Source of the DNA: Nioella sediminis | GTDB taxonomy: Bacteria; Pseudomonadota; Alphaproteobacteria; Rhodobacterales; Rhodobacteraceae | DNA: 64,000 nt | NCBI RefSeq assembly: GCF_001879695.1 | Contig: NZ_MNBL01000041.1 | Coordinates: forward strand, 1 to 64,000 | Direction: 5' to 3' | Shown here: positions 15,416 through 30,639 of the stretch, in pieces | Numbering within the stretch: position 1 is the stretch's first letter | How the letters are laid out: each line of letters starts with the position of its first letter | Notes under the pieces: model-generated | What the model was told of the DNA's origin: nothing | The model's input: only the letters and a program-made list of their open reading frames with translations | The model's database searches: none | Program-made: the position numbers and the translations under genes

Positions 15416-15428
15416 GGCGTGTCTTTCG

Positions 15429-16445
15429 TTACCGGCTGCGCATCTTGGCGGCGAATTGCGGATCGGCCTTCTGCATCCGCAGGGGAGGCAGGCCTTTGAG
15501 GATCTGACCGATATCGTCCAGCATCATCTCGCGGATGCGGGCATAAGAGGCGCGCAGCCCCCCGGCCAGATGGGCGGAAAAGAGAACATTGGGCGTGTCG
15601 CGCCAGACATGTCCGGCGGGGACGGGTTCTTCCGGGAAAACATCGACGGCGGCGCGGAAGGCCCCCTCGCCCGCCATGGCGAGGAAATCGTCGAAATCCA
15701 CGATCTCGGCGCGCGAGGCGAGGACAACGCAGGCATCGCGTCGGATCAGCGACAATTTCCTGCGGTCGAGAAATCCTTCGTTGTCCGAGGTCACGCCCGC
15801 CAGCAGGAAGATCACGTCCGACTTGGCCAGGGCGTCGTCCAGCGATACGGGCTGCAAACCTTCGCTTGCCAGGTAGCCGTCAGAGAGCCATGGGTCGTGC
15901 ACCAGCAACTGCACTCCAAATGGACGCAGCAGCGGGGCCAGCGCCCGACCGAGATTACCGTAGCCGATTAACGCAACGGTCGCACCGTAGAGGCTCTCCG
16001 CCGCGCCATTGCCGCCAATCCCATAGGCTTCCTGCCCTGCACGGAACAGCCCGTCGGCCCGGTGCAGACCGCGCAGCAGGCTGATGGACTGGCAGATGCA
16101 GAACTCGGCCACGGCGGGGGCCATGGCGGGTGCGGCGCTCAGCACGTGGATGCCGCGTGCGTGACACTCGGCGTAGTCGATATTCGGCTCCCAATTGGCC
16201 TTCACGTTCAGGATGGCGCGCAGGTTCGGGGCGCGGTCCAGTCGTTCCTTGGGCATCGCGGTCTGACCAATCAGAACGGTCATGTCCGACAGATGCTCCT
16301 CCACCAGATCATCCGGCGCGCGGCTGCCCCAATGGGCGACAACCCGGCCCATCCCGGCCAGCGCATCAGCGCAGTCGGGGGTGTAGACCATGGCCTCATT
16401 CCGCGGGAACGGATCCATGAAGATCAGCGGTGTGTCACTCATCAT
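15429..16445 (-). CDS. D-isomer specific 2-hydroxyacid dehydrogenase family protein
   Basis: A 338-residue NAD-dependent dehydrogenase of the 2-hydroxyacid family. The Rossmann motif IGYGNLG lies at about residue 170. The catalytic Arg (SRAEIVD), Glu (DVFPEEPVP) and His (SAHLAGG) are in canonical order. The ATG at 16445 makes an ATGA overlap with the preceding permease stop, which fixes the start. Within a uxuA-ABC transporter operon it probably oxidises or reduces a sugar-derived 2-hydroxy or 2-keto acid. The exact substrate is unknown. Confidence 0.85.
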   Translation of the reverse strand: MMSDTPLIFMDPFPRNEAMVYTPDCADALAGMGRVVAHWGSRAPDDLVEEHLSDMTVLIGQTAMPKERLDRAPNLRAILNVKANWEPNIDYAECHARGIHVLSAAPAMAPAVAEFCICQSISLLRGLHRADGLFRAGQEAYGIGGNGAAESLYGATVALIGYGNLGRALAPLLRPFGVQLLVHDPWLSDGYLASEGLQPVSLDDALAKSDVIFLLAGVTSDNEGFLDRRKLSLIRRDACVVLASRAEIVDFDDFLAMAGEGAFRAAVDVFPEEPVPAGHVWRDTPNVLFSAHLAGGLRASYARIREMMLDDIGQILKGLPPLRMQKADPQFAAKMRSR

Positions 16446-17515
16446 TTCATCCCTGAAGAGGCAATGCCGGTGGTGATGAAGCGTTGCAGGAAGGCGAAGA
16501 CAATCACGACCGGGATCAGGGTGACGACGGTCATGGCAAGGATGTAGTGCCACTGCACGTCCAACTCGCCCTGGAAGGCGTTCAGCCCGACTTGCAGCGT
16601 ATAGACCTCGGACCGGTTCAGCACGATCAGCGGCCAGAGGAATTCGTTCCAGCGCCACATGATCGAGAAGATCGCCAGCACCGCCACCGCAGGCATCGCC
16701 AAGGGCATCACCACGCGCCAATAGATCTGCCATTCCGACGCCTTGTCCATCCGAGCCGCCTCGATCAGATCGCGCGGGATCGTCAGCATGTACTGGCGCA
16801 GCAGGAAGACCCCCGTGGGTGTCGCCGCACCGGGCAGGATCACCGCCCAAAGCGAGTTGATCATGCCAAGGTTCGTAACCACGAGGTAAACCGGGACGAG
16901 GATCACCGTGATCGGGATCATCAGCGTACCGATCACGAACAACATGATCGCGTTACGCCCCCGGAATTCGTAGATCGACAGGCCGTAAGCCGCCATGGAG
17001 TTGATCAGCAGCGTGACCATCGTGGCCGCCGCAGTCACGATCACGGAATTCCACAGGTAGCGCATGAAATTGAAACGCTCCAGCGGATCGCGGTAGTTCT
17101 CCCACGCCATGCGCATCTCGCGCACGGGTTCGCGCGTCGCGATCGGGATTTGCAGGCGTTCACCGGGATTTTCAGGGTCCACCATCTGCGCCATGATGCC
17201 GATCCGCCGGACCTGGGCCAGTTGCTGGACGCTGCCATCTTCCATCGTCACGTCGAACAGCAACAGCGGCTCTTCATAGCCCTCAACCTCGACCGATATC
17301 TGCCCAAGCGGCAGGAAGGTCGGCGGAAATTCCTGCAAGCCCGCCGGGGTCTTGAACGAGGACAGAACCAGCCACACCACCGGCGCGAACATCAGGAACA
17401 GCCCGAAGCCGAGGTAGCAATAGGTAAACACGTCGGTCCAATGCATTTTGCCGCGGCCGCGACGGGCTCCAAGGAGGGTCTTGACCGAGCGGGGGGATTG
17501 CGTCGCATCAGTCAT
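16442..17515 (-). CDS. Carbohydrate ABC transporter permease, MalG type, with an enlarged first extracytoplasmic loop
   Basis: A 357-residue inner-membrane permease. The MalG-type EAA loop is seen as EAARMDKASEWQIYWRVVMPLAMPA. Family members are usually ~275-300 residues. The extra length lies between TM1 (about residues 30-55) and the next TM (about 155), a ~95-residue polar segment with short beta-like stretches (e.g. ISVEVEGYEEPLLLFDVTME). This loop would face the periplasm and the binding protein. It overlaps the upstream permease by 8 bp and the downstream dehydrogenase by 4 bp. Confidence 0.93.
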   Translation of the reverse strand: MTDATQSPRSVKTLLGARRGRGKMHWTDVFTYCYLGFGLFLMFAPVVWLVLSSFKTPAGLQEFPPTFLPLGQISVEVEGYEEPLLLFDVTMEDGSVQQLAQVRRIGIMAQMVDPENPGERLQIPIATREPVREMRMAWENYRDPLERFNFMRYLWNSVIVTAAATMVTLLINSMAAYGLSIYEFRGRNAIMLFVIGTLMIPITVILVPVYLVVTNLGMINSLWAVILPGAATPTGVFLLRQYMLTIPRDLIEAARMDKASEWQIYWRVVMPLAMPAVAVLAIFSIMWRWNEFLWPLIVLNRSEVYTLQVGLNAFQGELDVQWHYILAMTVVTLIPVVIVFAFLQRFITTGIASSGMK

Positions 17516-18530
17516 TGTCGCGTCTCCGGGTTGCGGCCAGTTGTGTCAGCGTCAGGACGAACAGCACCACGCCGAGCACCATGGAGGCGGCAGAGGCAAG
17601 GCCGAAATTCTGCACCTGGTTGGTGAAGGCGGTGTTGTAGATGTATTGCACGATGAACTGCGTCGCGGTGCCGGGACCGCCGCCGGTCAGAACGTAGACC
17701 TCATCGAAGACCTGCACGCCCTTGATCAGCGCCAGCACGATGACAACCAGCATATTGGGCCACAGAAGCGGCAGGGTGATGCGGAAGAAGACGCGCTCCT
17801 TGCTGGTGCCGTCCATCTCGGCGGCCTCGTAGAGATCGGGCTGGATCGCCTGAAGGCCAGCCAGCAGGATCAGCGTGTAGAAGCCCATATGCGCCCAGAT
17901 CGAAACGAACACCGCCCAGAACATCGCCCATTCGGGACTGACGAAGAACAGGATGCGGTCCAGCCCTATCGAGATCAGGAATGCGTTCAGGATGCCATCG
18001 CGCAGCAGGATCCATTTCCAGATCAGCGCAACGACCACCGGCGACAGCAGCACCGGGAAGAAGAACACCGCGCGCCAGAAGCCCCGCCCGCGGATCTCTC
18101 GGTTCAGGACCAGTGCCGTGATCAGTGAGAACAGCACCATGAACGAGACCTGGAAGAAGATGAACACTGCAGTGTTGAAGATTCCTTTCCAGAATCTGTC
18201 CTCTCGGCAACTGATCGGATCGGCATAGTTGTCGCAATCGAAGAGGAAGCCGTATTGCTCGCCCCCGGTATAGGGACGCTCGCTGATGAACAGCTCGGTC
18301 CCGCCGGTCAGCGAATAGGCGAAATTCATGAACAGCGGAATGATCACGAACATGCCGAAAAAGGCGAGGTTCGGCAGCAGGAAGAGCCACGGCATGCGCC
18401 GGATGCCAATCACGTTCTGAATTGCCGTGACGGGATAGTCGATCAGCTTGAACAGGATGCGGATGGGCCATGCCACCACGTTTTGCAGCACATCGCCGAT
18501 CCCGGTCGCCTTGTCATCCGCATGGGCCAT
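17508..18530 (-). CDS. Carbohydrate ABC transporter permease, MalF type
   Basis: A 340-residue inner-membrane permease with six or more TM segments. Its EAA loop is EAAEMDGTSKERVFFRITLPLLWPN. It pairs with the MalG-type permease encoded just downstream to form the translocation path. The N-terminal ~35 residues are cytoplasmic and the first periplasmic loop contains two Cys (FDCDNY and ISCRED), which could form a disulfide. The gene follows the binding-protein gene after a 77-bp spacer containing an RNA hairpin. Confidence 0.93.
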   Translation of the reverse strand: MAHADDKATGIGDVLQNVVAWPIRILFKLIDYPVTAIQNVIGIRRMPWLFLLPNLAFFGMFVIIPLFMNFAYSLTGGTELFISERPYTGGEQYGFLFDCDNYADPISCREDRFWKGIFNTAVFIFFQVSFMVLFSLITALVLNREIRGRGFWRAVFFFPVLLSPVVVALIWKWILLRDGILNAFLISIGLDRILFFVSPEWAMFWAVFVSIWAHMGFYTLILLAGLQAIQPDLYEAAEMDGTSKERVFFRITLPLLWPNMLVVIVLALIKGVQVFDEVYVLTGGGPGTATQFIVQYIYNTAFTNQVQNFGLASAASMVLGVVLFVLTLTQLAATRRRDND

Positions 18531-18561
18531 GGGAAGCTTCCATTCTCTTCAGGGGGTGACC

Positions 18562-18584
18562 GGCCCCGCCAGTCAGGCAGGGCC
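18562..18584 (-). promoter_or_regulatory. Intercistronic RNA hairpin between binding-protein and permease genes
   Basis: In the minus-strand transcript, GGCCCUGCC and GGCGGGGCC form a nine-pair stem (one G-U pair) around a 5-nt UGACU loop. No U-run follows. Such stems after the solute-binding-protein gene in ABC operons are known to protect the upstream mRNA from 3' decay or cause partial termination, raising the binding protein above the permeases. That role is inferred here. Confidence 0.55.
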
Positions 18585-18607
18585 AGCCGATCATCGGATC
18601 AGACGCT

Positions 18608-19876
18608 TCAGCGGTCGCTTTCGGCCAGCTGGTTTGCGATGTCTTCTTCCATCCGCGCATAGGCTTCATCGAGGGTCAGTTCACCTACGATGGCCTCGTT
18701 CAGACGAGAGATCAGAGCGTTGAACATCACGCGGTTGGACGGGTAACCCTGAAGGGCGAACGCCACCGGAGAGATGCTCGGAACTGCCCCGGCGAAGGTT
18801 GCCAGCGCATGGGCTGCGCGCGGATCATCCGTGTCGAAGTCGATCCCGCTCGAGGCAAGGCCGAGGTGACCCGGAATGAACAGCGTCCGGCCATAGAACT
18901 CGGCCAGAACTTCCTCTTGCGCGAGGTAATCCATCAGGATGCCGACCTCTTCCGGGTGTTCGGTATCGCCGATCGCTGCCAGCGCGGCACCACCGGGCAT
19001 CCCGGTACAGGCTGCCGGGCCACAAGGCGCGGGCACGGCCCACCAGTCGAACGCATCACCGATGGTGGATGCGAACTGCGGGATCTGCCAGGAACCGGAC
19101 ATGTACATCACGACGTTGGCGTTGGCGAAATCCTCGTTCGCGCCAAGGTAGGACGACCCGGAAACCGAGCCCCAAAGCTCCAGCGACATGGTGCCGTCCT
19201 GGTGCCAATCGTAGAGAAGCTGCGCCATGCGCTGGAGACCCTCATCGACCAGCGCCGGGTTGCCATCCGCGTCGAACATCTGGGCGCCCTGCGCGATGGC
19301 AGGCCCCGCAACACGGTGCCCGGACCGGTCCCACGCCATCGGGATCGGAATGTCGAGCGCACTGGCCACTTCGTTGACGGCAGCGGCCCAGTCTTCCCAG
19401 GTCGCGCCTTCACCCGGCAGGTCGACACCGGCCTGTTCGAACAGGGTCCGGTTCACGTAAGGCCCGGTCACGGTCAGCTGCGTCATGAAGCCGTTGATCG
19501 CATCGCCATCGGGATCAAGCCAGTCAAGGAACGGGCCGAAATTGGTTTCCCAGTATTCCGGGTCCTGAACGTAGGGCCGCAAGTCGAGGTAGTACTCTGA
19601 CAGCCCGCCAAGATCGGTCACGCGGGCGATGTCGGGGCCGTTGCCCGCCGCCAGCTGGATCGGCAGCGATTCCAGAACCGCCTGATAGGGCACCACGTCA
19701 AGCGTGACGCTGATTTCGGGATGGGCTTCCTCGAACCGGTCGAGGATCGACTGCATGACCTCGCCCTCGATGCCGTCGTTATACCACATCATGCGCAGTT
19801 CGGTCTGTGCCGACGCCGCCCCCGCAACAAGCGCAAAGAGCGAGCTTGCCGCCATAAGTTTCAGTGATCTTCTCAT
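18608..19876 (-). CDS. Extracellular carbohydrate-binding protein of the ABC transporter
   Basis: A 422-residue solute-binding protein (SBP_bac_1 type, cluster B). The signal peptide covers residues 1-23 (basic MRRSLK, hydrophobic core, cleavage after ASA). The mature part begins TELRMMWYNDG and keeps the periplasmic-binding fold pattern. The start was set at MRRSLK because it follows a strong Shine-Dalgarno sequence (ggaggaaac in the transcript). A longer in-frame start lacks one. It captures the imported sugar in the periplasm. Neighbouring uxuA suggests a hexuronate-, aldonate- or glycoside-type ligand, which is inference. Confidence 0.93.
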   Translation of the reverse strand: MRRSLKLMAASSLFALVAGAASAQTELRMMWYNDGIEGEVMQSILDRFEEAHPEISVTLDVVPYQAVLESLPIQLAAGNGPDIARVTDLGGLSEYYLDLRPYVQDPEYWETNFGPFLDWLDPDGDAINGFMTQLTVTGPYVNRTLFEQAGVDLPGEGATWEDWAAAVNEVASALDIPIPMAWDRSGHRVAGPAIAQGAQMFDADGNPALVDEGLQRMAQLLYDWHQDGTMSLELWGSVSGSSYLGANEDFANANVVMYMSGSWQIPQFASTIGDAFDWWAVPAPCGPAACTGMPGGAALAAIGDTEHPEEVGILMDYLAQEEVLAEFYGRTLFIPGHLGLASSGIDFDTDDPRAAHALATFAGAVPSISPVAFALQGYPSNRVMFNALISRLNEAIVGELTLDEAYARMEEDIANQLAESDR

Positions 19877-19938
19877 TGTTTCCTCCCTAGGATGGTTGAT
19901 CGTACTTTCGTTTTGTCCTGCTCTTCGTGTTCCGCATC

Positions 19939-21135
19939 TCACGCCGGTTGTCGTGAAAGGGCCGCCATCACACCGCGTAACTCTGCCATGCCTTTCAGGC
20001 GTCCAACGGCCGGATAACCCGGCTGTGCGCCCGCCCCGATATCGGTCAGTATGTCCTGACCGTGATCCGGTCTCATCGGTATCTCTGCATCCGCGCGCCC
20101 CTCCGCGCGCCGCCGCGCTTCCTCGGTCAGGATCACGTCGATCACACCGACCATGTCGACATCACCGCACAGATGCTCTGATTCCATGAAGCTGCACGGT
20201 GCTCCCTCCGAATCACGGGTGACGTTGCGCAGGTGAACGAAGTGTATTCTGGGCGCGAGCGCCCGGGCCATCGCCACGCAATCATTGTCAGAACGCGCGC
20301 CAAGAGATCCGGTACAGAACGTCGCCCCGAAGGCAGGGCTGTCAACAGCGCCAAGAACGGCCTCGTAATCCTCCAGCGTGGACATGGTGCGCGGCAGCCC
20401 CAACAGGGAAAAGGGCGGATCATCGGGGTGACAGCACAGGCGCACCCCGAGCCGTTCGGCCAATGGCACGACCTCGGACAGGAAATCGATATGGGTCTGG
20501 CGCAGAACGTCGGGCGACAACGCGGCGTAGGTCTGAACCGCGGCACGCACGTCTTCCAGCGTCCAGTGCTCGGCCGCCCCTGGAAGGCCCGAGACGACCG
20601 CCTGGCTGAGCGCAGCCTTGGTTCCGTCGTCCATTCCGGCCATGACGTCGGCTGCCGCCTGAACGATCTCGGGGGCATAGGCCTCCTTGGCACCGGGGCG
20701 GGCCAGAATGTGAATGTCAAACGCCGCGAAGGTGGCCAGATCGAACCGCATCGCGGTGCCACCTGACGGCAACGGCGCGCGAAGCTCCGTGCGGGTCCAG
20801 TCCAGGACTGGCATGAAATTGTAGCAGATCGTCTCGATTCCGCTGGCCGCCAGCGCTTCGATCGACGCGCGATAGGCGGCAATGTGGGCACCCCAATCCG
20901 GCGATCTGGTCTTTATGGCCTCGGAAACCGGGAGGCTCTCGACAACATCCCACGCCATTGCGCCGTTGGACCCCAGCTCGATCTGGCTTTGCCTTTCTCG
21001 GATATCCTCAACTGTCCACGGCAAACCGGGCGGGACATGATGCAAGGCCGAAACGATACCCTCGGCACCCGCTTGCATCGCATCGGCCAAGGAAACCTTG
21101 TCGTGTGGGCCAAACCATCTCCAAGTTCGCCGCAT
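19939..21135 (-). CDS. uxuA: Mannonate dehydratase
   Basis: This 398-residue enzyme dehydrates D-mannonate to 2-keto-3-deoxy-D-gluconate in hexuronate catabolism. The N-terminus RRTWRWFGPHDKVSL and the segment SALHHVPPGLPW match the UxuA family closely (E. coli 394 aa). Metal-binding candidates are visible in LCCHPDD and HFVHLRNV. It is the first gene of the transcript running to the ATPase gene. Its ATG is 23 bp from a palindromic operator shared with the promoter at 24.5 kb. The matching uxuB-type mannonate oxidoreductase and uxaC are not in the window. Confidence 0.95.
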   Translation of the reverse strand: MRRTWRWFGPHDKVSLADAMQAGAEGIVSALHHVPPGLPWTVEDIRERQSQIELGSNGAMAWDVVESLPVSEAIKTRSPDWGAHIAAYRASIEALAASGIETICYNFMPVLDWTRTELRAPLPSGGTAMRFDLATFAAFDIHILARPGAKEAYAPEIVQAAADVMAGMDDGTKAALSQAVVSGLPGAAEHWTLEDVRAAVQTYAALSPDVLRQTHIDFLSEVVPLAERLGVRLCCHPDDPPFSLLGLPRTMSTLEDYEAVLGAVDSPAFGATFCTGSLGARSDNDCVAMARALAPRIHFVHLRNVTRDSEGAPCSFMESEHLCGDVDMVGVIDVILTEEARRRAEGRADAEIPMRPDHGQDILTDIGAGAQPGYPAVGRLKGMAELRGVMAALSRQPA

Positions 21136-21157
21136 CTAGTCCTTCTCCCAAGCCCTC

Positions 21158-21173
21158 ATACCGGTATACTAGT
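21158..21173. promoter_or_regulatory. GntR-type operator upstream of uxuA
   Basis: ATACCGGTATACTAGT, centred on GTATAC, shares the 13-mer ATACCGGTATACT with a site at 24496-24508 next to the gntR gene. It lies just upstream of uxuA in the AT-rich part of a 175-bp spacer (21136-21310). FadR-subfamily regulators of hexuronate genes (UxuR/ExuR) bind palindromes of the TTGGTATACCAA type, so this is very probably the operator of the uxuA-ABC transcript. Confidence 0.75.
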
Positions 21174-21310
21174 ATTATTACTCATCCCCACGCAAACCTT
21201 TTTTACAAGGCTCCAATTAAGGTCAGAGGACAGTGCCGGTCGCGCTTATTGCCCCGATCACGCCTTCTGGCGCGGGCTTTCCCCGATTGCTCGCCCTGCC
21301 CGTCGGGACA

Positions 21311-22375
21311 TCAGCGACTGCCCGGCATCCATCCAGTGTAACAAGGGGAACCGCTTGAAAGCGGCAGCTTGATCGGCCCGCCCTCTCTTGCTGAGCGATA
21401 GATGGCGGTGACCAGTTCAATTGACCTCCGCCCATCTTCGAGGGTGACTTCCATGCCGCCCTGGCCCGTCAACGCATCTGCGACCGCGTCAAGATATCTG
21501 GCAAACCCCGCATGGCCATGCGGAACCTGTTGCACGACAGAATCAACCTCTGCCTGTGCGACGGGCGCGCGCGCGATGAACCGCCATTCGTCCTGTGCCG
21601 GGCTGTAGGGGGCTGAACCGCTTTCGGCGGTGACGCCCTCGAAACAGAAACGGAGGCGGGTGGTGTCGTTCCCGGCACCAAGCGTGACCGAACTGGTCGC
21701 CAGCGCCCCATTCTGCATCCGAAACGCCAGAGCGGCGCAGTCTTCCGTCTCGATCTGGTTCACGCGGGTATCCGTCAGCGCCGTGACCTCGGCAACCGGC
21801 CCGAACACCTTGCACAGCAGGTCATGAGCATGGATCGCGTGGCCCAACAGCGCGCCACCGGATTCCCCGGCCCATGTCCCGCGCCAGGGAACGGCATAAT
21901 ACGCGGCATCGCGGTTCCAATGCGTCTCAAGGCTAGCCACGAATGGCTTGCCCGTCAGACCAGCAGCGACTAGCGCCTGTAGCTGCGCCATGGCGCGGCC
22001 ATAGCGATACTGGAACACCGGGAACACCGACTTGCCGCAGGTCTTCGCCATCGCCGTCAGCCGGTCGGCCTCATCCAGAGACCGGACAATCGGCTTTTCG
22101 CAGATCACATGCTTGCCTGCCTCAAGGCACTGAACGGCAATCGGGAAATGAAGGTGCGGCGGCAGACAGATGTCGATCAGGTCAATCGACGGATCGGCCA
22201 GGACGGCCTCCAGATCTCCGGTGACCGAAATCGCCGGATCGCCCCCGGTTGCCGCCATTGCCCGCGCAGTGTCCAGATCGCACATGACAGCCGCCTGAAA
22301 CTGGTCTGGCAACGCGCGGTAGCCTGAGAGATGTTCGGCCCCGATGCCCGCGCCGATGATTGCGGTGCGGATCAT
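21311..22375 (-). CDS. Gfo/Idh/MocA-family oxidoreductase
   Basis: A 354-residue NAD(P)-dependent sugar oxidoreductase. The N-terminal Rossmann motif is AIIGAGIGAEH, the family signature EKPI is near residue 97, and a C-terminal alpha/beta domain follows with a possible catalytic His in GHAIHAHDL. Third of three consecutive paralogous-type genes on this strand, joined by 4-bp overlaps. Members oxidise inositols, sugars or glycosides, or act as redox glycosidases. The specific substrate is unknown, but the context points to the sugar imported by the neighbouring transporter. Confidence 0.88.
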   Translation of the reverse strand: MIRTAIIGAGIGAEHLSGYRALPDQFQAAVMCDLDTARAMAATGGDPAISVTGDLEAVLADPSIDLIDICLPPHLHFPIAVQCLEAGKHVICEKPIVRSLDEADRLTAMAKTCGKSVFPVFQYRYGRAMAQLQALVAAGLTGKPFVASLETHWNRDAAYYAVPWRGTWAGESGGALLGHAIHAHDLLCKVFGPVAEVTALTDTRVNQIETEDCAALAFRMQNGALATSSVTLGAGNDTTRLRFCFEGVTAESGSAPYSPAQDEWRFIARAPVAQAEVDSVVQQVPHGHAGFARYLDAVADALTGQGGMEVTLEDGRRSIELVTAIYRSAREGGPIKLPLSSGSPCYTGWMPGSR

Positions 22376-23379
22376 GGGTTGGCTTCGGCCATGGCCTGCG
22401 CCCTGAGTGCCAGTTCACAAACCTTGAAGGCATGGGCCTGCGTCATCGCCGTTTCCGTCCGGTCGCGCAGATCGGCCACGAAGCGCGAAAAGAAGGGCAG
22501 GTCCGCCCCGGATGCATCAATCTTTTCGCACCGGTCTCCGTTCACGATGATCAGATGATCCGTCCCTTCGCTGCCGACATCCACGTATTTGCGAAGCTCG
22601 ATATAGCCCTCTGTCCCGAGAATGGTCAGCCGTCCATCGCCCCATGTGGGCAGGGCGTCGGGCGTGTACCAATCCACGCGGATATAGCCATGGCCCTGAT
22701 CGCTGCGCAGGGCGAGTTCAGCGAAATCCTGAAGGCCCGGATCGTTCGGGTTGGCATAGTTGGCAACGCTGGCCAGTGTGACCTCGGCGTCAGTCGACCC
22801 GGTGAAATACAGGAACTGGTCGATCTGGTGGCTGGCGATATCGGTGATGATCCCGCCATAGGCCTCTCGGTCGAAAAACCAGTCCGGCCGCGTGTCCCGG
22901 TTCAGCCGATGCGGCCCGATCCCTAGGGTCTGGATGACACGCCCGATGGCGCCCTCAGCCACAAGTTCAGCCGCGCGGGTCACGGCTGGCACCTCGAAAC
23001 GCTCAGAAAAATCGATGGACCAGATGCGGCCCGTCGCGGCCACCGTTGCCTTTATCGCGTCGAGCTGCTCCATCGTCGTACAACCGGGCTTGTCGGTCAG
23101 CACGTCCTTGCCCGCCTGCATCGCGCGAATGGCCATTTCCGCGCGGTCACGCGGAATGCCGGACAGCAGGATCAGGTTGATGGAGGGATCGTCCAGCAGG
23201 GCCTGAACATTGTCTGCGCGGGGAACATCGGCAAAACGCTCAACAAAGCCCGCCTCGGTGCCCGGGTGACCCTCGGTCCACCACCCGGCAAACTCGGCCC
23301 CTGCGGCGATCATGTTCGCGGCCATTCCGTAGATATGGCGGTGGTCGATGCCAATGGCGGCAAAGCGTAGGGCGGTCAT
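22372..23379 (-). CDS. Gfo/Idh/MocA-family oxidoreductase
   Basis: A 335-residue member of the Gfo/Idh/MocA family. The N-terminus is atypical for the family (AAIGIDHRHIYGMA in place of a clear GxGxxG), and the signature is DKPG near residue 95 instead of EKP. The second half keeps the predicted active-site region GGIITDIASHQIDQF with a candidate catalytic His. It overlaps both neighbouring oxidoreductase genes by 4 bp. The weakened dinucleotide motif suggests a divergent subgroup; the cofactor is uncertain. Confidence 0.85.
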   Translation of the reverse strand: MTALRFAAIGIDHRHIYGMAANMIAAGAEFAGWWTEGHPGTEAGFVERFADVPRADNVQALLDDPSINLILLSGIPRDRAEMAIRAMQAGKDVLTDKPGCTTMEQLDAIKATVAATGRIWSIDFSERFEVPAVTRAAELVAEGAIGRVIQTLGIGPHRLNRDTRPDWFFDREAYGGIITDIASHQIDQFLYFTGSTDAEVTLASVANYANPNDPGLQDFAELALRSDQGHGYIRVDWYTPDALPTWGDGRLTILGTEGYIELRKYVDVGSEGTDHLIIVNGDRCEKIDASGADLPFFSRFVADLRDRTETAMTQAHAFKVCELALRAQAMAEANP

Positions 23380-24425
23380 GTGGTCAACTCCGTTACTCCG
23401 CCGGTTCTCGCGGATGTGGTGATTGCATCGATAAGATCATGGGCAGCGAGCGCGTCCTTGCCGGTGATGGCAGGAGGCCGGCCCGAGATCAGGGCAGCGG
23501 CGAAATCCTCGATCACGCCCTGATGCCATTCGTGGGTAAAGGCCATGGGATCGGCCCCACCCCCTGTGCCGCCTGCCGCGCCGAACACAACGGAACGACC
23601 GTCTCTCCAGCTCACGCGCAGTTCCCCGGATTCAAGGTGCAGGCTGGCCCGGTCGAAATGCAGCGTGATGGATTCGGCGCCGCCGGGGAAACTGGCCGTG
23701 CTGGCAACGAGCGACCCGACAGCCCCGCTTGCGAATTCCAGCCCGGCAATAACGAAATCCTCGGACTCCATCCGATGGAATCTGGTCGTGGCGGCCATCG
23801 CACGCACGGATGCAACCGGACCGGCCAGCCACAAAGCCAAGTCGATCGTGTGAATCGCCTGGCTGATCAAGACGCCGCCGCCATCGCGGGCATAGCTGCC
23901 CCGACCGGGTTCGTCATAATAGCTTTGCTCCCGCCACCAAGGCACCGAAACCTCGACCAGACCGAGCGCACCCAGATCGTTCGCGGCGATCATCTGCGCG
24001 GCCTTGCGCGACGCCTCTCTCATGCGGTGTTGGAACACCACGCCAAGCGTCACACCCGCGTCACGGCAGATCGTCACGACCTCCCGTGCTTCGTCCGCAT
24101 TTCGGCCCATGGGCTTTTCAAGCAGGATATGTTTGCCCGCCTCGGCCAGCGGGCGAATGATGTCTGCACGGGCATTGGGTGGCGTCAGGACGATTGCGAA
24201 ATCGACGTCCGGATCCGCTGCAACCGTGCCAAGATCATGGAACACCCGGACGGGGTGGCCGACCCGTGATTGCGCCATTTCTGCCAGATTGCGGGCCTTT
24301 TCCGCGGTCCGGGATTGTACGCCATAGAGGGACACGCCAACGGCATCGGCGCAGGCTGCAACATGGGTTCGCGCCACCATTCCCGCACCGATCAGAACCA
24401 CGCGTTTCGGCGATGCACTCAGCAT
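23376..24425 (-). CDS. Gfo/Idh/MocA-family oxidoreductase
   Basis: A 349-residue oxidoreductase with a clear N-terminal dinucleotide-binding motif (VVLIGAGMVARTH), the signature EKPMGRN near residue 103, and a C-terminal domain with GGGVLISQAIHTIDLAL containing the candidate catalytic His. It is the first gene of the three-gene oxidoreductase operon, transcribed away from gntR. The promoter region (24426-24540) holds an operator at 24496-24511. Three different Gfo/Idh proteins in a row suggest successive oxidation and reduction of a modified sugar, as in known 3-keto-glycoside routes. That is inference. Confidence 0.88.
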   Translation of the reverse strand: MLSASPKRVVLIGAGMVARTHVAACADAVGVSLYGVQSRTAEKARNLAEMAQSRVGHPVRVFHDLGTVAADPDVDFAIVLTPPNARADIIRPLAEAGKHILLEKPMGRNADEAREVVTICRDAGVTLGVVFQHRMREASRKAAQMIAANDLGALGLVEVSVPWWREQSYYDEPGRGSYARDGGGVLISQAIHTIDLALWLAGPVASVRAMAATTRFHRMESEDFVIAGLEFASGAVGSLVASTASFPGGAESITLHFDRASLHLESGELRVSWRDGRSVVFGAAGGTGGGADPMAFTHEWHQGVIEDFAAALISGRPPAITGKDALAAHDLIDAITTSARTGGVTELTT

Positions 24426-24540: not shown

Positions 24541-25269
24541 TTGAAACGGAAATCGGCCGCCATAGATGCGTCTTCCCTGCCTGTGGCGTCCCTTGACCTG
24601 TCACGCCCGGCGGCCGAGCAGATCGCTTCTGCCCTGAAATCTGCTGTTCTGAACATGCAGATCGCGCCGGGGGCGATGATCTCGGAAAACGAGGTTGGTC
24701 AGTTGTTTGGGGCCAGCCGCACACCTGTGCGAGAAGCCTTTGCGCAACTGCGTGACGACGGGCTTGTCGTCACCTGGCCAAGCCGTGGCACCTATGTGTC
24801 CAAGCTGTCCGAACATCAGATCCGGGGCGCCCAGTTCCTGCGCGAAGCCCTGGAAGTGGCGGTGGTCGACCGTTTGTGTTCCGAAGGCATCTCGGACAGG
24901 GCCCTTGCTGCGCTGGACGACAACCTTGCCCAACAACGCGCGGCGGTGCGGGCCGATGACAAGCTGACCTTTCAGGCATTGGATGACCGGTTTCACGCCA
25001 TGCTGGCCGAGGCCACGGGCTTTGAGCGCATAAGCGGGCTGCTGATCCGGGAGAAAGCTGCGCTTGACCGGCTTCGTGTGCTGGCACTTAACGACGCCGC
25101 GCATATGTCGCGCCTGCTATCCGAACATGAGGGCATTCTCGACGCGGTGCGAAACGCCTATTCCGGCCAGGCACTTGACCGTATGCGGCGCCACCTTCGC
25201 AATGTGTTGTCCACGCTTTCCGGGATGATCGAGGCCAACCGGGATTTTTTCGACCTGTCCGACGACTAG
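24541..25269 (+). CDS. GntR-family transcriptional regulator, FadR subfamily (FCD domain)
   Basis: A 242-residue regulator. The N-terminal winged helix-turn-helix spans about residues 20-90 (ENEVGQLFGASRTPVREAFAQL). A C-terminal all-helical FCD ligand-binding domain follows, with Asp/His residues typical of its metal site (DDRFHAML, LSEHEGIL). The frame begins with TTG at 24541 preceded by ggagagcg. FCD proteins usually sense a carboxylate such as a sugar acid. Its position divergent from the oxidoreductase operon and the shared operator with uxuA make it the likely repressor of both transcripts. Its stop overlaps the convergent hydrolase stop by 4 bp (CTAG). Confidence 0.92.
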   Translation: MKRKSAAIDASSLPVASLDLSRPAAEQIASALKSAVLNMQIAPGAMISENEVGQLFGASRTPVREAFAQLRDDGLVVTWPSRGTYVSKLSEHQIRGAQFLREALEVAVVDRLCSEGISDRALAALDDNLAQQRAAVRADDKLTFQALDDRFHAMLAEATGFERISGLLIREKAALDRLRVLALNDAAHMSRLLSEHEGILDAVRNAYSGQALDRMRRHLRNVLSTLSGMIEANRDFFDLSDD

Positions 25270-26186
25270 CTGTCTCGGCCTCGCCCGTCGACAAGCTGCC
25301 GCTTCAGAAACCGCAACACAGCCGCGCGCATCGCCGGGGTTTCTTCATGCGCTGCATCCGGCTCGATGTGAAACTCCAGCCCCTGCCTGCCGCCATAGGC
25401 CGCTTCCAGATCCTGCCGTCCCCGGTTGAAGGCTCCCTCCGGCGTCGACCAGTCGTTCAAGCCCACGCAGATCTGCAAGGCACGCGGCGCGGTCAGGCCT
25501 GCAATCTGCCCGCTGCGCGCAACGGGCAGCAAGCCCGGCACGGTCATGTAGGTGCCATGGCCGTCATGCTCCCCCAGATCCACCAGCTTTTCCAGATCGG
25601 CGAAGGAACACAGCGCCGAGGCCGCGCGCACCCGTTCATCCATCGCCGCCAGCCACCAGGCCAGCGTGCTGCCCATGGAAAAACCCAGTGCCCCGAGCCT
25701 GTTGCGATCCACCACAGGATGATCCGCAAGAAAGCTCAGCCCTGCCATCTGCTCCGCCAGCATCTGCCCGAACAGCGTTTCCCCCCGCCACAGCGCCGCC
25801 TTGGCACGGGCAGATTCCCCAGGCAGCTGCCGCGTCCCGAAACAGGGCATGTCCATGCACAGCGCCGCCACCCCAAGCGCCTCCAGGTCGGCGGCGTAGG
25901 GGCCTTGCAGCGACGGTCTACCCTCGATCAGTTCCTCCCGCCCCATGGTGTAGCGATTGCCATGGGCATGACAGTAGACCAGGGCCGGGACCGGCGTCTG
26001 CCCGTCAGGCGGGCGCAGGAACAGGGCGGGAACCGGCACGCCCCCCGCCGTCTCAAACAGCAGGTCGTCCAGCACCCAGTCCCCGAACTGCCTGCGGCCC
26101 TGCACCGTGACCTTGCGGAAATTCGGCCCGGGAAACCCCGCCCCGAGCAGCCCTGCCAGCCGATCCCGCAGGGCCGCGCCTGTCAT
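25266..26186 (-). CDS. Alpha/beta hydrolase (dienelactone-hydrolase/acetyl-esterase-like)
   Basis: A 306-residue alpha/beta hydrolase. The nucleophile elbow GFSMGS is near residue 160, the oxyanion-side motif CHAHGNRY lies upstream, and the probable catalytic His near residue 290 is in DAAHEET. The family includes esterases and lactonases. It is the last gene of the minus-strand operon containing flavin reductase, aldo/keto reductase and SsuD-type monooxygenase, with ATGA overlaps throughout. If the operon degrades sulfolipid head groups, deacylation or lactone opening would be plausible, but nothing in the sequence proves it. Confidence 0.85.
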   Translation of the reverse strand: MTGAALRDRLAGLLGAGFPGPNFRKVTVQGRRQFGDWVLDDLLFETAGGVPVPALFLRPPDGQTPVPALVYCHAHGNRYTMGREELIEGRPSLQGPYAADLEALGVAALCMDMPCFGTRQLPGESARAKAALWRGETLFGQMLAEQMAGLSFLADHPVVDRNRLGALGFSMGSTLAWWLAAMDERVRAASALCSFADLEKLVDLGEHDGHGTYMTVPGLLPVARSGQIAGLTAPRALQICVGLNDWSTPEGAFNRGRQDLEAAYGGRQGLEFHIEPDAAHEETPAMRAAVLRFLKRQLVDGRGRDS

Positions 26187-26695
26187 GCGCCAACCGCGAA
26201 CTGGCCGAACTGCCCGCCATAAAACAGAAGCGGCAGACCCTGACGGACCGAGGCTTTCAGCACCCGACCCACAAGGATCGCATGGTCGCCGCCATCATAT
26301 TCGGCGTAGCGCTCGCATTCGAACCGCGCGAGGCAACCCTGCAACAGGGGCACCCCGCGTTCGCTTTCACGCCAATCCACCTGATCGAACGCATGTGCCG
26401 AGGCCGAAAAGGCCCGGCACAGATCCATCTGGTTTTCCGCCAGAACGTGAATCGCCATGTGTTCGGCTTCCCGAAAAGCCGGATAGCGCCGCGACGCGCG
26501 GGAGGCCGACCACAACACCAGTGGCGGATCGAGCGACACGGACGAGAAGCTGTTGGCCGTGATCCCCACCGGACCCGCATCCGTGGACGTCGTAACAATC
26601 GTCACGCCGGTTCCGAACCGCGAAAGGGCGCTGCGCAGCTCGCGTCCCATATCGGGGCCGGGGCTGAAATGGCTCATGCCGTCCTGCATGGTCAT
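26183..26695 (-). CDS. Flavin reductase family protein, probable partner of the adjacent monooxygenase (SmoA-like)
   Basis: A 170-residue protein of the flavin-reductase-like FMN-binding family. The motif GITANSFSSVSLDPPLVLWS is typical, with further conserved positions in VGRVLKA. Such enzymes supply free reduced FMN to two-component monooxygenases. The ATG at 26695 makes an ATGA overlap with the aldo/keto reductase stop, which fixes the start over a longer frame. Its place two genes behind an SsuD-type monooxygenase matches the smoA-smoB-smoC set of the sulfoquinovose monooxygenase pathway. NADH versus NADPH use is not predictable. Confidence 0.85.
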   Translation of the reverse strand: MTMQDGMSHFSPGPDMGRELRSALSRFGTGVTIVTTSTDAGPVGITANSFSSVSLDPPLVLWSASRASRRYPAFREAEHMAIHVLAENQMDLCRAFSASAHAFDQVDWRESERGVPLLQGCLARFECERYAEYDGGDHAILVGRVLKASVRQGLPLLFYGGQFGQFAVGA

Positions 26696-27588
26696 GGCAC
26701 CTCGCTCCCCCAGGCTGCGGTCAGGATCTCGAACCAGGTTTCGCGGTCCATCTCGACCCGCGCCGCGTCGGAAATCGCACGGATCCGGTCCAGATTGTTG
26801 GTGCCCATGACCGGGGCAAGCTTGGCCGGATGCGCCAGCAGCCATGCCACGGCCACCGCAGTCGCATCAACGCCCTGTTCTGCGGCGATCCGGTCCAGCA
26901 CCGCGCGCACGGCAGCGCCGTCTTCGCCAAAAAGACGCCCGCCGCCAAGCGGCGACCATGCCATCGGGCGAATGCTGCGTTCCTGCATCCAGGCGATATC
27001 GCCGTCTATGAAGGGGGCGAAATGCAGCACGCTCGCCTCCACCTGATTGGTGCAGAGCGGTGTTGTCATCGCCGATTGCAGCAACGTCCAGTCATTGAGC
27101 TTGAAGTTCGACACACCGACCGCGCGGACCTTGCCGGAGGCGACAAGAGCATCCAGCGCCGCACCGGTTTCATGGTGGTCCATCAGAGGATCGGGCCGGT
27201 GGATCAACAGAAGGTCGATCCGGTCCGTGGCCATGTTAGCCAGCGACGCCTCGACCGACGCGGTGATATGGGCGGCGGAGGTGTCGTAGTATTTCACCCG
27301 CTTGTCCGAGTACTTCCCGATCGGGGCGACGATATCGCATTTGGTGACGATCTCGATCCGGTCGCGCAGTGCGGGTGCGGCCCGCAGGGCCGCCCCCATC
27401 ACCTCTTCAGCGCCGTAGTCGCCGTAGATATCGGCTTGATCCATGGTTGTGATGCCCTGATCGAGACAGGCTTCGATCTTGGCCTGCACATGGGCGGGCG
27501 AAGTATCGGCATCATCAGCGACGCGCCACATGCCATAGACAAGGCGGCTGATGTCCAACTGGCCGGACAGGCTTAGTCGTTCGGTCAT
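26692..27588 (-). CDS. Aldo/keto reductase, candidate 6-oxo-glucose reductase (SmoB-like)
   Basis: A 298-residue (beta/alpha)8 NADPH-dependent aldo/keto reductase. The catalytic tetrad is visible: Asp and Tyr in DQADIYGDYG (about residues 50-55), Lys in IVTKCDI and His in LLLIHRPD. In the sulfo-SMO pathway an aldo/keto reductase turns the 6-oxo-glucose left by desulfonation into glucose. The fixed neighbours (flavin reductase behind, SsuD-type monooxygenase ahead, both with 4-bp overlaps) make that role attractive. General YdhF-type reductases look similar, so the substrate is inferred from context. Confidence 0.85.
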   Translation of the reverse strand: MTERLSLSGQLDISRLVYGMWRVADDADTSPAHVQAKIEACLDQGITTMDQADIYGDYGAEEVMGAALRAAPALRDRIEIVTKCDIVAPIGKYSDKRVKYYDTSAAHITASVEASLANMATDRIDLLLIHRPDPLMDHHETGAALDALVASGKVRAVGVSNFKLNDWTLLQSAMTTPLCTNQVEASVLHFAPFIDGDIAWMQERSIRPMAWSPLGGGRLFGEDGAAVRAVLDRIAAEQGVDATAVAVAWLLAHPAKLAPVMGTNNLDRIRAISDAARVEMDRETWFEILTAAWGSEVP

Positions 27589-28739
27589 TTGCGCTCTCCC
27601 GCGCCAAGCGGCGTCATCGGTGTTTCACTGGGTACGCGGCCATATTCCTGCGGCAGCGAGCATGTCGTCAGATGCGGCATGACCTTTTCGCCGAAGATCC
27701 TGCACTCCTCCAGATGCGGATAGCCCGAGAAGATGAAGGCGCGCATGCCCATCTTCTTGTACTCTTCGATCTTGGTCAGGACCTGATCGACCGACCCGAC
27801 CAAGGCCGCCCCGCAGCCCGACCGCGCCCGGCCCACGCCGGTCCAGAGATTGGGCTCCACATAACCGAACTTGTCGGCAAGCTCCCGCGCCTTGGCCTGG
27901 TGTGCCACGCCGAGCGAGATGGAATCATGCGCCCGGTCGCGGATCAGTTTGCCATATTCGTCATCGAGCTTGGACACGATGTAATCGGCATATTCCCGCG
28001 CCTCGGCCTCGGTATCGCGCACGATCATGTGCACCCGCAGGCCATAGTCCAGTGTCCGGCCATAGCGCTCCGCCACCGCGTTCACGGCCTTCATCCGTTC
28101 TGCGAGGTTGTCCTTGGGTTCGGGCCACATCAGGTAGACATCGCAATGCTGGCCGCACAGCTCCAGCGCGTCGGGAGAATAGCCGCCGAAGTAGAGCAGC
28201 GGGCCGCCGGTCTGGTAGGGCTTCGAAGGGTCTGTGGTGAGCCCCTTGAAGCTGTAGACCTCGCCCTCGTGGTTGATCTCGTCCTGCGTCCAGGCCTGTT
28301 TCAGGATCTCGACCACCTCGCGCGACCGCTGATAGCGCAGCTTGCTGTCGGCCACCTCGCCAGGGAAGTCGGAGCTGATGATGTTGACTGTCAACCGCCC
28401 CTTCAGCATGTGGTCGAGCGTGGCGATAGTGCGCGCCAGCATGATCGGCTGCATCTCGCCGCAACGCACGGCGGCCAGCATGTTGATCCGGTCCGTAATC
28501 GGCGCGCAGCCCGCCACGAATGACAGCGTGTCCTGACCCACCTGGTAGGAGGACGGACAGAGGATGTTACGGAAGCCCTGGCGTTCGGCTTCCTTCAAGA
28601 TCCCGGAACAATGCTCCCAGCTCGACCGCAGGTCGCCGTCGGGCACGCCCAGGAACTGGTAATCGTCGGAACAGAGCGCCGCGAACCACGATACCTCGGC
28701 GGCATCGAGATCGGCTGACGTGACGGGGACCACGGTCAT
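27585..28739 (-). CDS. SsuD-type FMNH2-dependent monooxygenase, candidate sulfoquinovose monooxygenase (SmoC-like)
   Basis: A 384-residue bacterial-luciferase-fold enzyme. It aligns by eye with E. coli alkanesulfonate monooxygenase SsuD along most of its length (YFGGYSPDA, DVYLMWPEP, PNLWTGVG, FSGYPHLEE). Counterparts of SsuD active-site Arg226, His228, Arg297 and Tyr331 are seen as Arg235, His237, Arg306 and Tyr340. SsuD Cys54 appears not to be conserved. Such enzymes cleave C-SO3 bonds, releasing sulfite and an aldehyde. The start at MTVVPV follows gggagga in the transcript. No ssuABC transporter is nearby, so a sugar sulfonate substrate fits better than alkanesulfonates. Confidence 0.88.
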   Translation of the reverse strand: MTVVPVTSADLDAAEVSWFAALCSDDYQFLGVPDGDLRSSWEHCSGILKEAERQGFRNILCPSSYQVGQDTLSFVAGCAPITDRINMLAAVRCGEMQPIMLARTIATLDHMLKGRLTVNIISSDFPGEVADSKLRYQRSREVVEILKQAWTQDEINHEGEVYSFKGLTTDPSKPYQTGGPLLYFGGYSPDALELCGQHCDVYLMWPEPKDNLAERMKAVNAVAERYGRTLDYGLRVHMIVRDTEAEAREYADYIVSKLDDEYGKLIRDRAHDSISLGVAHQAKARELADKFGYVEPNLWTGVGRARSGCGAALVGSVDQVLTKIEEYKKMGMRAFIFSGYPHLEECRIFGEKVMPHLTTCSLPQEYGRVPSETPMTPLGAGERK

Positions 28740-28755
28740 GAAAACATTCCTCCCG

Positions 28756-28811
28756 GATACATCATTTTCCTCTTGCGTAGCATTCGCCAATGAGTAGATC
28801 AATAATGTATC
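28756..28811. promoter_or_regulatory. Widely spaced inverted repeat in the divergent promoter region
   Basis: GATACATCATT (28756-28766) and AATAATGTATC (28801-28811) are inverted copies with one mismatch, 34 bp apart, in the AT-rich spacer between the monooxygenase gene and the UTRA-type gntR gene. One copy lies near each start. They are candidate binding sites for the GntR regulator encoded immediately to the right. Confidence 0.45.
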
Positions 28812-28833
28812 AATTCTTCTACAGGAGGCGGCT

Positions 28834-29544
28834 TTGCCCCCCAATAAACCCGGCGGTGCCCTGCCGATCTACCTGCAAATCAGCGAGATGCTAATCCGCG
28901 ACATCGCAGCAGGGCGGCTGTTGGATGGCAGTCGTCTGCCGCCCGAGCGAGAGATGGCAAAGTCGCTCGACACCTCGGTCGGAACCCTCAGGAAAGCTTT
29001 ATCGGAGCTGGAAAATCGGGGCTTGCTGGAGCGGCGGCAAGGGTCTGGTAATTATATAAGATCGAAGACGACGCCTGAGGGCATCTATGCCCTTTTCCGA
29101 CTGGAACTGGTCGGCGGCGGCGGGCTGCCCACGGCGACGGTGCTGGATGTGACGCGGATGGACAAGCCCGCCGATCTGCCCGCTTTCGGTGCATCAATCG
29201 CGGCGCACAGGATTCGGAGGATGCGATTCCTCGGTGGCAAACCGGCAGCGGTCGAGGAAATCTGGCTCGATGCCAGCTATGCGGACCAGCTCGCGCCCGA
29301 TGACCTGCTGCACTCGCTTTACATGTACTACCGCGAAACACTCGACCTGTGGATCACCGGCTACGAGGACCAGGTCGGCGTCGCCCCCTGCCCCGATTGG
29401 GCCCCCGACGCGTTCGGCCAGCGCCCCGGCGCGCCCTGCGGGCTGGTGGAACGCCAAAGCCGCGCGCGCGACGGCAGCATCGCCGAGGTCTCTCGCAACT
29501 GGTTCGACAGCAACGTGGCGCGTTACGTCGCCCGCATGAGGTAA
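28834..29544 (+). CDS. GntR-family transcriptional regulator, HutC subfamily (UTRA domain)
   Basis: A 236-residue regulator with an N-terminal GntR helix-turn-helix (about residues 5-72; LPPEREMAKSLDTSVGTLRK) and a C-terminal UTRA effector domain of chorismate-lyase fold (about 90-230; RRMRFLGGKPAAVEEIWLD). UTRA regulators commonly sense sugars or sugar phosphates. The frame starts with TTG at 28834 after a strong aggagg. It is divergent from the monooxygenase operon and 3 bp upstream of a Gfo/Idh gene, and is the natural candidate regulator of both. Confidence 0.92.
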   Translation: MPPNKPGGALPIYLQISEMLIRDIAAGRLLDGSRLPPEREMAKSLDTSVGTLRKALSELENRGLLERRQGSGNYIRSKTTPEGIYALFRLELVGGGGLPTATVLDVTRMDKPADLPAFGASIAAHRIRRMRFLGGKPAAVEEIWLDASYADQLAPDDLLHSLYMYYRETLDLWITGYEDQVGVAPCPDWAPDAFGQRPGAPCGLVERQSRARDGSIAEVSRNWFDSNVARYVARMR

Positions 29545-29547
29545 TCC

Positions 29548-30639
29548 ATGAACTCTCCCCTGCGTTACGGCATCATCGGCTGCGGCATGATGGGCCAGGA
29601 ACATATCCGCAATATTGCGCTCATTGACGGGGCCGAGGTGGTGGCGATCTACGAGCCCGATCCCGGCATGCGGGCAGAGGCCGCGAAACTGGTGCCCGGC
29701 CTGCGCTTCGCGGACAGCATCGCCGATCTTCTGGCCATGGAAGAGGTGAACGCGCTGCTCATCGCTTCGCCCAACTTCCGGCACGTGGAACAGCTGGAGG
29801 AAATCGCCCGCCTGCGTGCCCTGCCGATCCTCGTGGAAAAGCCGCTTTACACCGACCCCGCCGATGCAGCGCGGATTGCGCGATTGCAGGCCACTTACCC
29901 GCAGCTCCTCTGGGTCGCGATGGAATATCGCTACATGCCCCCCATTGCCGCCCTGCTGGAACAGGCAGATGAGGCCACCGGCGGCATCCGCATGCTGACC
30001 ATCCGCGAACATCGCTTTCCGTTTCTTGAAAAGGTGGGCGACTGGAACCGATTCAACCATCAGACCGGCGGCACACTGGTCGAAAAGTGCTGCCACTTCT
30101 TCGATCTGATGCGCTTGCTGCTGAAATCGGACCCTGTGCGCGTGATGGCCTCGGGCGGGCAGGCGGTGAACCATCTGGACGAACGCTACAACGGGAAGAC
30201 GCCCGATATCTGGGACAATGCCTATGTCATCGTCGATTTCGCCAATGGCGCACGGGCGATGCTGGAACTGTGCATGTTCGCCGAGGGCAGCCGCTATCAG
30301 GAGGAGATTTCCGCCGTCGGCCCCACCGGCAAGATCGAGGCCCTCGTGCCTGGTCCGGGCCGCTTCTGGCCCGAGCATCTGGGCGCCCCGCCGGTGCCCA
30401 AGCTGATCGTCAGCCCACGTGACCCGAAAGGCCCGCGAGAGCTGGATATTCCCGTCGACCCCGAGTTGCTGGAGGCTGGCGACCACAACGGGTCCACCTA
30501 CTACCAGCACAAGTATTTCGCGGATGCCGCCCGCACGGGCGGCCGCCCGCATGTGTCCCTGTCCGATGGGGCCTGGGCGGTGCGCATGGGCCTTGCCGCA
30601 CAGCAATCGGCGGCGACGGGGCAGGCCGTTCTGCTATAA
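29548..30639 (+). CDS. Gfo/Idh/MocA-family protein, candidate NAD-dependent sulfoquinovosidase
   Basis: A 363-residue Gfo/Idh/MocA protein with dinucleotide motif IIGCGMMGQEH, family signature VEKPLY near residue 108 and a distinctive second-domain stretch containing WNRFNHQTGGTLVEKCCHFF. It starts 3 bp behind the UTRA-type gntR and faces away from the monooxygenase operon. NAD-dependent sulfoquinovosidases (GH188, SqgA), which I recall as Gfo/Idh-related, release sulfoquinovose from its glycosides. No GH31 sulfoquinovosidase is in the window, so this protein could fill that role. The specific assignment is hypothesis; the family assignment is firm. Confidence 0.85.
   Translation: MNSPLRYGIIGCGMMGQEHIRNIALIDGAEVVAIYEPDPGMRAEAAKLVPGLRFADSIADLLAMEEVNALLIASPNFRHVEQLEEIARLRALPILVEKPLYTDPADAARIARLQATYPQLLWVAMEYRYMPPIAALLEQADEATGGIRMLTIREHRFPFLEKVGDWNRFNHQTGGTLVEKCCHFFDLMRLLLKSDPVRVMASGGQAVNHLDERYNGKTPDIWDNAYVIVDFANGARAMLELCMFAEGSRYQEEISAVGPTGKIEALVPGPGRFWPEHLGAPPVPKLIVSPRDPKGPRELDIPVDPELLEAGDHNGSTYYQHKYFADAARTGGRPHVSLSDGAWAVRMGLAAQQSAATGQAVLL

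Follow-up and report, generated by a model that had tools for sequence, protein, structure and literature searches.

A predicted GH188 sulfoquinovosidase gene beside the sulfo-SMO genes of Nioella sediminis

The analysed stretch of DNA (64,000 nucleotides, hereafter the window) carries an open reading frame on the forward strand, at positions 29548 to 30639, which starts with ATG and encodes a product of 363 amino acids. This product belongs to the Pfam family GFO_IDH_MocA, as expected from an earlier note on this sequence, which had described a Gfo/Idh/MocA gene. On the basis of homology, residues and a fold model, it is predicted to be a GH188 NAD-dependent sulfoquinovosidase and the gene is referred to as sqgA. 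It is preceded on the same strand by a regulator gene (28834 to 29544, TTG start as listed) whose product displays the Pfam domains GntR and UTRA. The reverse strand carries a smoC-like gene for an FMNH2-dependent, luciferase-like sulfoquinovose monooxygenase (27585 to 28739, Pfam Bac_luciferase), a smoB-like aldo/keto reductase gene (26692 to 27588, Pfam Aldo_ket_red), a smoA-like flavin reductase gene (26183 to 26695, Pfam Flavin_Reduct) and an alpha/beta hydrolase gene (25266 to 26186), a sub-lineage accessory gene whose product has a carbohydrate-esterase-like fold. Overlaps of 4 bp link smoC to smoB (27585-27588), smoB to smoA (26692-26695) and smoA to the hydrolase gene (26183-26186). 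Both the 3 bp separating the regulator stop (29544) from the sqgA start (29548) and the divergence of sqgA from the monooxygenase operon, with smoC, smoB and smoA all on the reverse strand, had been pointed out in the earlier note and were found as described. An operator-like motif, ATCAATAATGTATCAAT, occupies positions 28798 to 28814 in the intergenic region between smoC and the UTRA regulator gene.

Over residues 1-383, the window SmoC matched the PDB sequences 7olf (E 3.6e-217) and 7oh2 (E 8.7e-214); the smoC start was selected for its alignment with residue 1 of 7oh2. SmoB matched 7bby (E 5.4e-131) and SmoA, queried minus its first residue, matched 4xhy (E 4.1e-44), while a FerA-like model gave 210.8 bits for SmoA, under its cut-off of 260. 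Since the PDB labels are generic, 7olf and 7oh2 are taken here to be SmoC proteins and 7bby a SmoB protein. The sulfoquinovosidase of Agrobacterium, a class GH31 enzyme, is named SmoI. The window has the same adjacent set of genes as the sulfo-SMO (sulfo-ASMO) pathway SmoA/SmoB/SmoC of Agrobacterium tumefaciens, as presented in the available part of PMC12890257. Its cluster holds a predicted GH188 sulfoquinovosidase gene in place of that for the GH31 enzyme SmoI.

The three best PDB matches of the window SqgA were 8zn9 (E 8.8e-164), 8qc2 (E 1.5e-110) and 8qc3 (E 3.5e-108), followed among Gfo/Idh proteins by 6jw6 at E 6.7e-19 only. Membership of GH188, which the earlier note had proposed, thus agrees with the matches to the solved enzymes of this family. 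No GH188 row for the window SqgA was returned by Pfam or NCBIfam. Identity amounted to 67% with 8zn9 over the whole protein and to 48-51% with FlSqgA and ArSqgA, the founding GH188 enzymes deposited as the 8qc entries (Kaur et al. 2023, PMC10755693, available part). An AlphaFold model reached a pLDDT of 90.9; its input comprised 18 sequences, namely that of the window protein together with those of 17 homologues out of the 80 described below. In a Foldseek search with this model, ranks 1-12 went exclusively to 8zn9 and 8qc entries (TMq 0.87-0.96, 48-67% identity) and other Gfo/Idh proteins appeared from rank 13 onward, starting at TMq 0.75. The predicted structure combines an N-terminal Rossmann domain with a C-terminal alpha/beta domain, which are arranged as in SqgA. 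FlSqgA and ArSqgA (8qc2, 8qc3, 8qc5, 8qc6, 8qc8) resemble the window SqgA in fold, substrate-contact residues and sulfonate residues; their structures are from Flavobacterium and Arthrobacter, whereas the gene in the window belongs to a sulfo-SMO cluster of a Rhodobacteraceae genome. The closer relative 8zn9 is a distinct protein despite 67% identity and a TM-score of up to 0.96. Its PDB title reads 'A vast marine sulfonate-based carbon cycle fueled by novel sulfoquinovosidases' and, judging by the similar titles, it is presumably the structure from Ma et al. 2025 (Nat Commun); a literature search on the code 8ZN9 returned no paper.

Residue numbering for the comparison with ArSqgA was anchored on its Arg166. 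All eight positions reported to contact sulfoquinovose in ArSqgA were matched in the window SqgA: the contact or catalytic residues Lys107, Tyr136, Glu189, His193 and His321 correspond to K98, Y127, E179, H183 and H313, and the sulfonate site formed by Arg166, Leu170 (backbone) and Lys172 corresponds to R156, L160 and K162. For Glu163, which stands in the place of GH109 Tyr226, the anchor puts ArSqgA position 163 on a Val and the adjoining Glu aligns with E154; this mismatch was tentatively taken as a one-residue difference in numbering. None of the 80 homologues compared (the best 80 of 585) differed from the window SqgA at the eight contact positions or at E154, an identity which partly reflects plain relatedness, since these were best-scoring relatives, 66-87% identical, found with patterns from the window SqgA itself. 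The block WNRFNHQTGGTLVEKCCHFF (residues 166-185), suspected beforehand to be a specialised active site, contains E179 and H183, the counterparts of ArSqgA Glu189 and His193, and lies just behind the sulfonate site, whose R156, L160 and K162 answer the check on sulfonate-binding residues suggested at the same time. A Tyr-variant GH188 group is described in the available part of PMC11465081; owing to the Leu at position 160, the window SqgA falls outside it and assignment to that group was ruled out.

These residues also bear on the possibility that the gene encodes a conventional Gfo/Idh dehydrogenase of sugars or inositol, lying beside the smo genes by chance and acting, for instance, on sulfoquinovose or 6-dehydroglucose. 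The fold family is common to both kinds of enzyme, and the best NCBIfam row was inositol 2-dehydrogenase (TIGR04380, E 1.8e-27). However, this row reached 96.1 bits where the cut-off is 355, so that the clear inositol dehydrogenase match which the earlier note would have held against its proposal was not found. Moreover, the GH188 structures score some 89 orders of magnitude above the next Gfo/Idh protein, and the sulfonate triad and both catalytic histidines are retained. An identity as inositol or glucose-fructose dehydrogenase was ruled out by these scores and residues, and the broader reading as a dehydrogenase placed there by chance is extremely improbable. The product of 29548-30639 is, in our analysis, almost certainly a cytosolic GH188 sulfoquinovosidase standing at the start of sulfo-SMO catabolism. 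This reading is based on homology, conserved ligand residues, gene order and the absence of GH31; activity, substrate and location, as well as the mechanism transferred from FlSqgA and ArSqgA, are to be understood as predictions.

In the GH188 mechanism set out in the available part of PMC10755693, NAD+ is a catalytic cofactor and C3 of the sugar is transiently oxidised, then re-reduced. In the window protein, a sulfoquinovoside (for example, sulfoquinovosyl glycerol) would lose a hydride from its C3 to NAD+ bound in the Rossmann domain, the aglycone of the resulting 3-keto sugar would be lost by elimination across C1-C2, and after addition of water NADH would reduce C3 back to yield free sulfoquinovose. 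The cycle would proceed with no net use of NAD. The lack of an obvious redox partner, remarked upon in the earlier note, is expected under this published mechanism, a partner not being needed because the same NADH re-reduces C3. Downstream, SmoC and SmoA would cleave the C-S bond of sulfoquinovose to give sulfite and 6-dehydroglucose, which SmoB would reduce to glucose.

The organisation of the locus was compared among 80 homologous loci, the best 80 of at least 585 confirmed candidates, obtained by a scan with patterns drawn from the window SqgA and encoding proteins 66-87% identical to it. Identity thresholds were set at 50% or more for the UTRA regulator, 75% for SmoC, 55% for SmoB and 45% for SmoA. 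Among these best 80 of 585, a UTRA gene was found directly upstream of sqgA on the same strand in 79 loci (missing in L061) and SmoC in 79 (missing in L053), with SmoC divergent and within 1.5 kb of sqgA in 75; SmoB was present in 73 and SmoA in 67. One locus (L022:10001-11071) holds a sqgA homologue with one stop inside the aligned range.

To define the intergenic motif, 74 divergent intergenic regions were used together with the window. With up to two mismatches, ATCAATNNTGTATCAAT (window 28798-28814) occurs in 75 of the 80 loci (best 80 of 585) at a distance of 600-1100 bp upstream from sqgA and was missing there in L028, L043, L053, L061 and L079. Only four more sites were present in the 1,515,920 bp of these 80 loci, in L028, L043, L049 and L079. 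Each precedes a relocated smoC by 74-96 bp, the distance being counted between the starts of motif and smoC match, and none of the four contributed to the motif. The motif stays with smoC when the cluster is rearranged, and no site at two mismatches was seen in the sqgA arm of L028 or L043. In the genome from which the window derives, a single exact site was found. Allowing up to three mismatches gave 10 sites (nine of them at two or three mismatches) against four for a reversed control pattern, so that nothing usable can be said of further operator sites in this genome; the open reading frames around its one two-mismatch site offered no lead. None of the papers listed in a literature search for a SmoD operator names SmoD. 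The motif may act as a promoter, as a regulator site or in both roles, and both arms are probably under the control of the UTRA-GntR regulator, acting from the common intergenic region.

Distribution was also evaluated in 296 genomes drawn from the same family, with thresholds of E 1e-60 for SqgA, 1e-150 for SmoC and 1e-40 for YihQ-like GH31 proteins. SqgA was found in 151 genomes, SmoC in 126 and both in 124, a co-occurrence for which the Fisher test ignores the relatedness of genomes. At the thresholds used, 27 genomes had SqgA without SmoC, their homologues being 46-57% identical in 23 and 65-70% in four; GH188 enzymes also occur in other sulfoquinovose pathways (Kaur et al., PMC10755693, available part). 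Distances were compared in 24 genomes with both genes, comprising 20 with high SqgA scores and four picked for separated genes, and thus not a sample: the two starts were about 2 kb apart in 19, 7.3 kb in one and 96 kb in one, and on different contigs in three. At least four genomes with both genes (G083, G103, G135, G239) have sqgA and smoC 96 kb apart or on different contigs.

A GH31 sulfoquinovosidase had been presumed absent, and the searches agree: PF01055 gave no match in the window genome (the same search was positive in six of 14 control genomes) and no YihQ-like GH31 was found there at E 1e-40. The window genome thus combines smoA, smoB and smoC with a nearby GH188 gene and no GH31 sulfoquinovosidase. 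Among the 296 family genomes, a YihQ-like GH31 was detected in one (G139), which is in neither the SqgA nor the SmoC list. The GH31 sulfoquinovosidase YihQ of E. coli has the same net reaction as GH188, whereas the two differ in family and mechanism (PMC10755693, available part). The two genomes with SmoC but without SqgA, G087 and G248, had neither GH188 nor YihQ-like GH31 at the thresholds used; they may either use free sulfoquinovose or possess another sulfoquinovosidase.

According to the available part of Kaur et al. 2023 (PMC10755693), GH188 is near-universal in sulfo-SMO clusters of marine Roseobacter-clade bacteria, in which GH31 is reported to be lacking. A GH188 enzyme is described as widespread in marine Roseobacteraceae by a 2026 review (PMC12890257, available part), which refers to Ma et al. 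2025 on this point. As GH188 in sulfo-SMO clusters has already been described, the arrangement in the window is correct and ordinary for this bacterial group. Our counts (SqgA in 124 of 126 smoC genomes, a YihQ-like GH31 in one of 296) add numbers to the published claim of GH188 standing in for GH31. It is worth noting that a generic 'Gfo/Idh oxidoreductase' label conceals a likely glycosidase which opens sulfosugar catabolism in this family. Less familiar by-products are the esterase-like gene overlapping smoA and the sharply conserved operator-like motif, which can serve to locate such clusters and to test the regulator.

The hydrolase gene is relevant to the natural substrate. Its product gave a model of moderate quality (pLDDT 81.5), whose nearest folds, among the 50 matches listed, belong for the most part to acetyl xylan and glucuronoyl esterases (14-22% identity). 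Another sulfoquinovoside, beta-linked or O-acylated, might be the main natural substrate of the GH188 enzyme instead of sulfoquinovosyl glycerol, the O-acylated one after being rendered accessible by this esterase. FlSqgA is active on both alpha and beta glycosides (PMC10755693, available part) and the hydrolase gene overlaps smoA by 4 bp. Relatives at 45% identity or more occurred in eight of the 80 loci (best 80 of 585), adjoining smoA in six (L009-L012, L069, L079). Among the 296 family genomes, the eight best-scoring relatives (E 1e-100 or better) included six within 5 kb of smoC (G000, G165, G073, G077, G184, G212), distances being compared by eye. In contrast, 72 of the 80 loci (best 80 of 585) showed no hydrolase at 45% identity in the fetched flanks, some shortened by contig ends, so that the core pathway does not require the gene, and 24 of the 30 family genome relatives at E 1e-30 were not near smoC. 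Such a main substrate is rated as unlikely. Among the matches listed by a loose-term literature search, no paper relevant to a sulfoquinovose-linked sulfolipase or esterase appeared. A wider proposal, also improbable, is that of an extended sub-lineage sulfo-SMO operon in which the esterase-like hydrolase would deacylate an acylated sulfoquinovoside ahead of SqgA, while the operator of the smoC and sqgA arms, read by UTRA-GntR, would define a very small ancient regulon.

Beyond the hydrolase gene lie an FCD-GntR gene (24541-25269) and, beside it, a cluster (14327-24425) with a sugar ABC transporter, a 2-hydroxyacid dehydrogenase, a UxuA-like mannonate dehydratase and three different Gfo/Idh genes. 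The latter, starting at 21311, 22372 and 23376 (region 21311-24425), were ruled out as further GH188 copies, the sulfonate triad not being kept in their products; that of 23376-24425 shares 21% of residues with the window SqgA over 199 residues (pairwise). The matching region of L011 also holds UxaC and a mannitol-dehydrogenase-type gene, which suggests hexuronate catabolism adjoining the smo cluster. The ABC transporter (14327-19942) is a candidate sulfoquinovose importer with no labelled relative in PDB: at a threshold of E 0.01, its solute-binding protein (18608-19942) had 26 matching PDB chains, and no label among them mentions sulfoquinovose binding. Relatives of this protein at 40% identity or more occurred in 15 of the 80 loci (best 80 of 585). 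In L079, labelled Marinovum algicola, the order is regulator, sqgA, smoC, smoB, smoA, hydrolase, Gfo/Idh, binding protein, two permeases and ATPase, the Gfo/Idh protein being 68% identical to the product of 23376-24425 and the binding protein 50% identical to that of the window. The ABC transporter of L079 is a candidate sulfoquinovoside importer for this lineage. From sqgA to the full sugar ABC transporter, all genes of this locus (L079:9989-20419) run in one direction.
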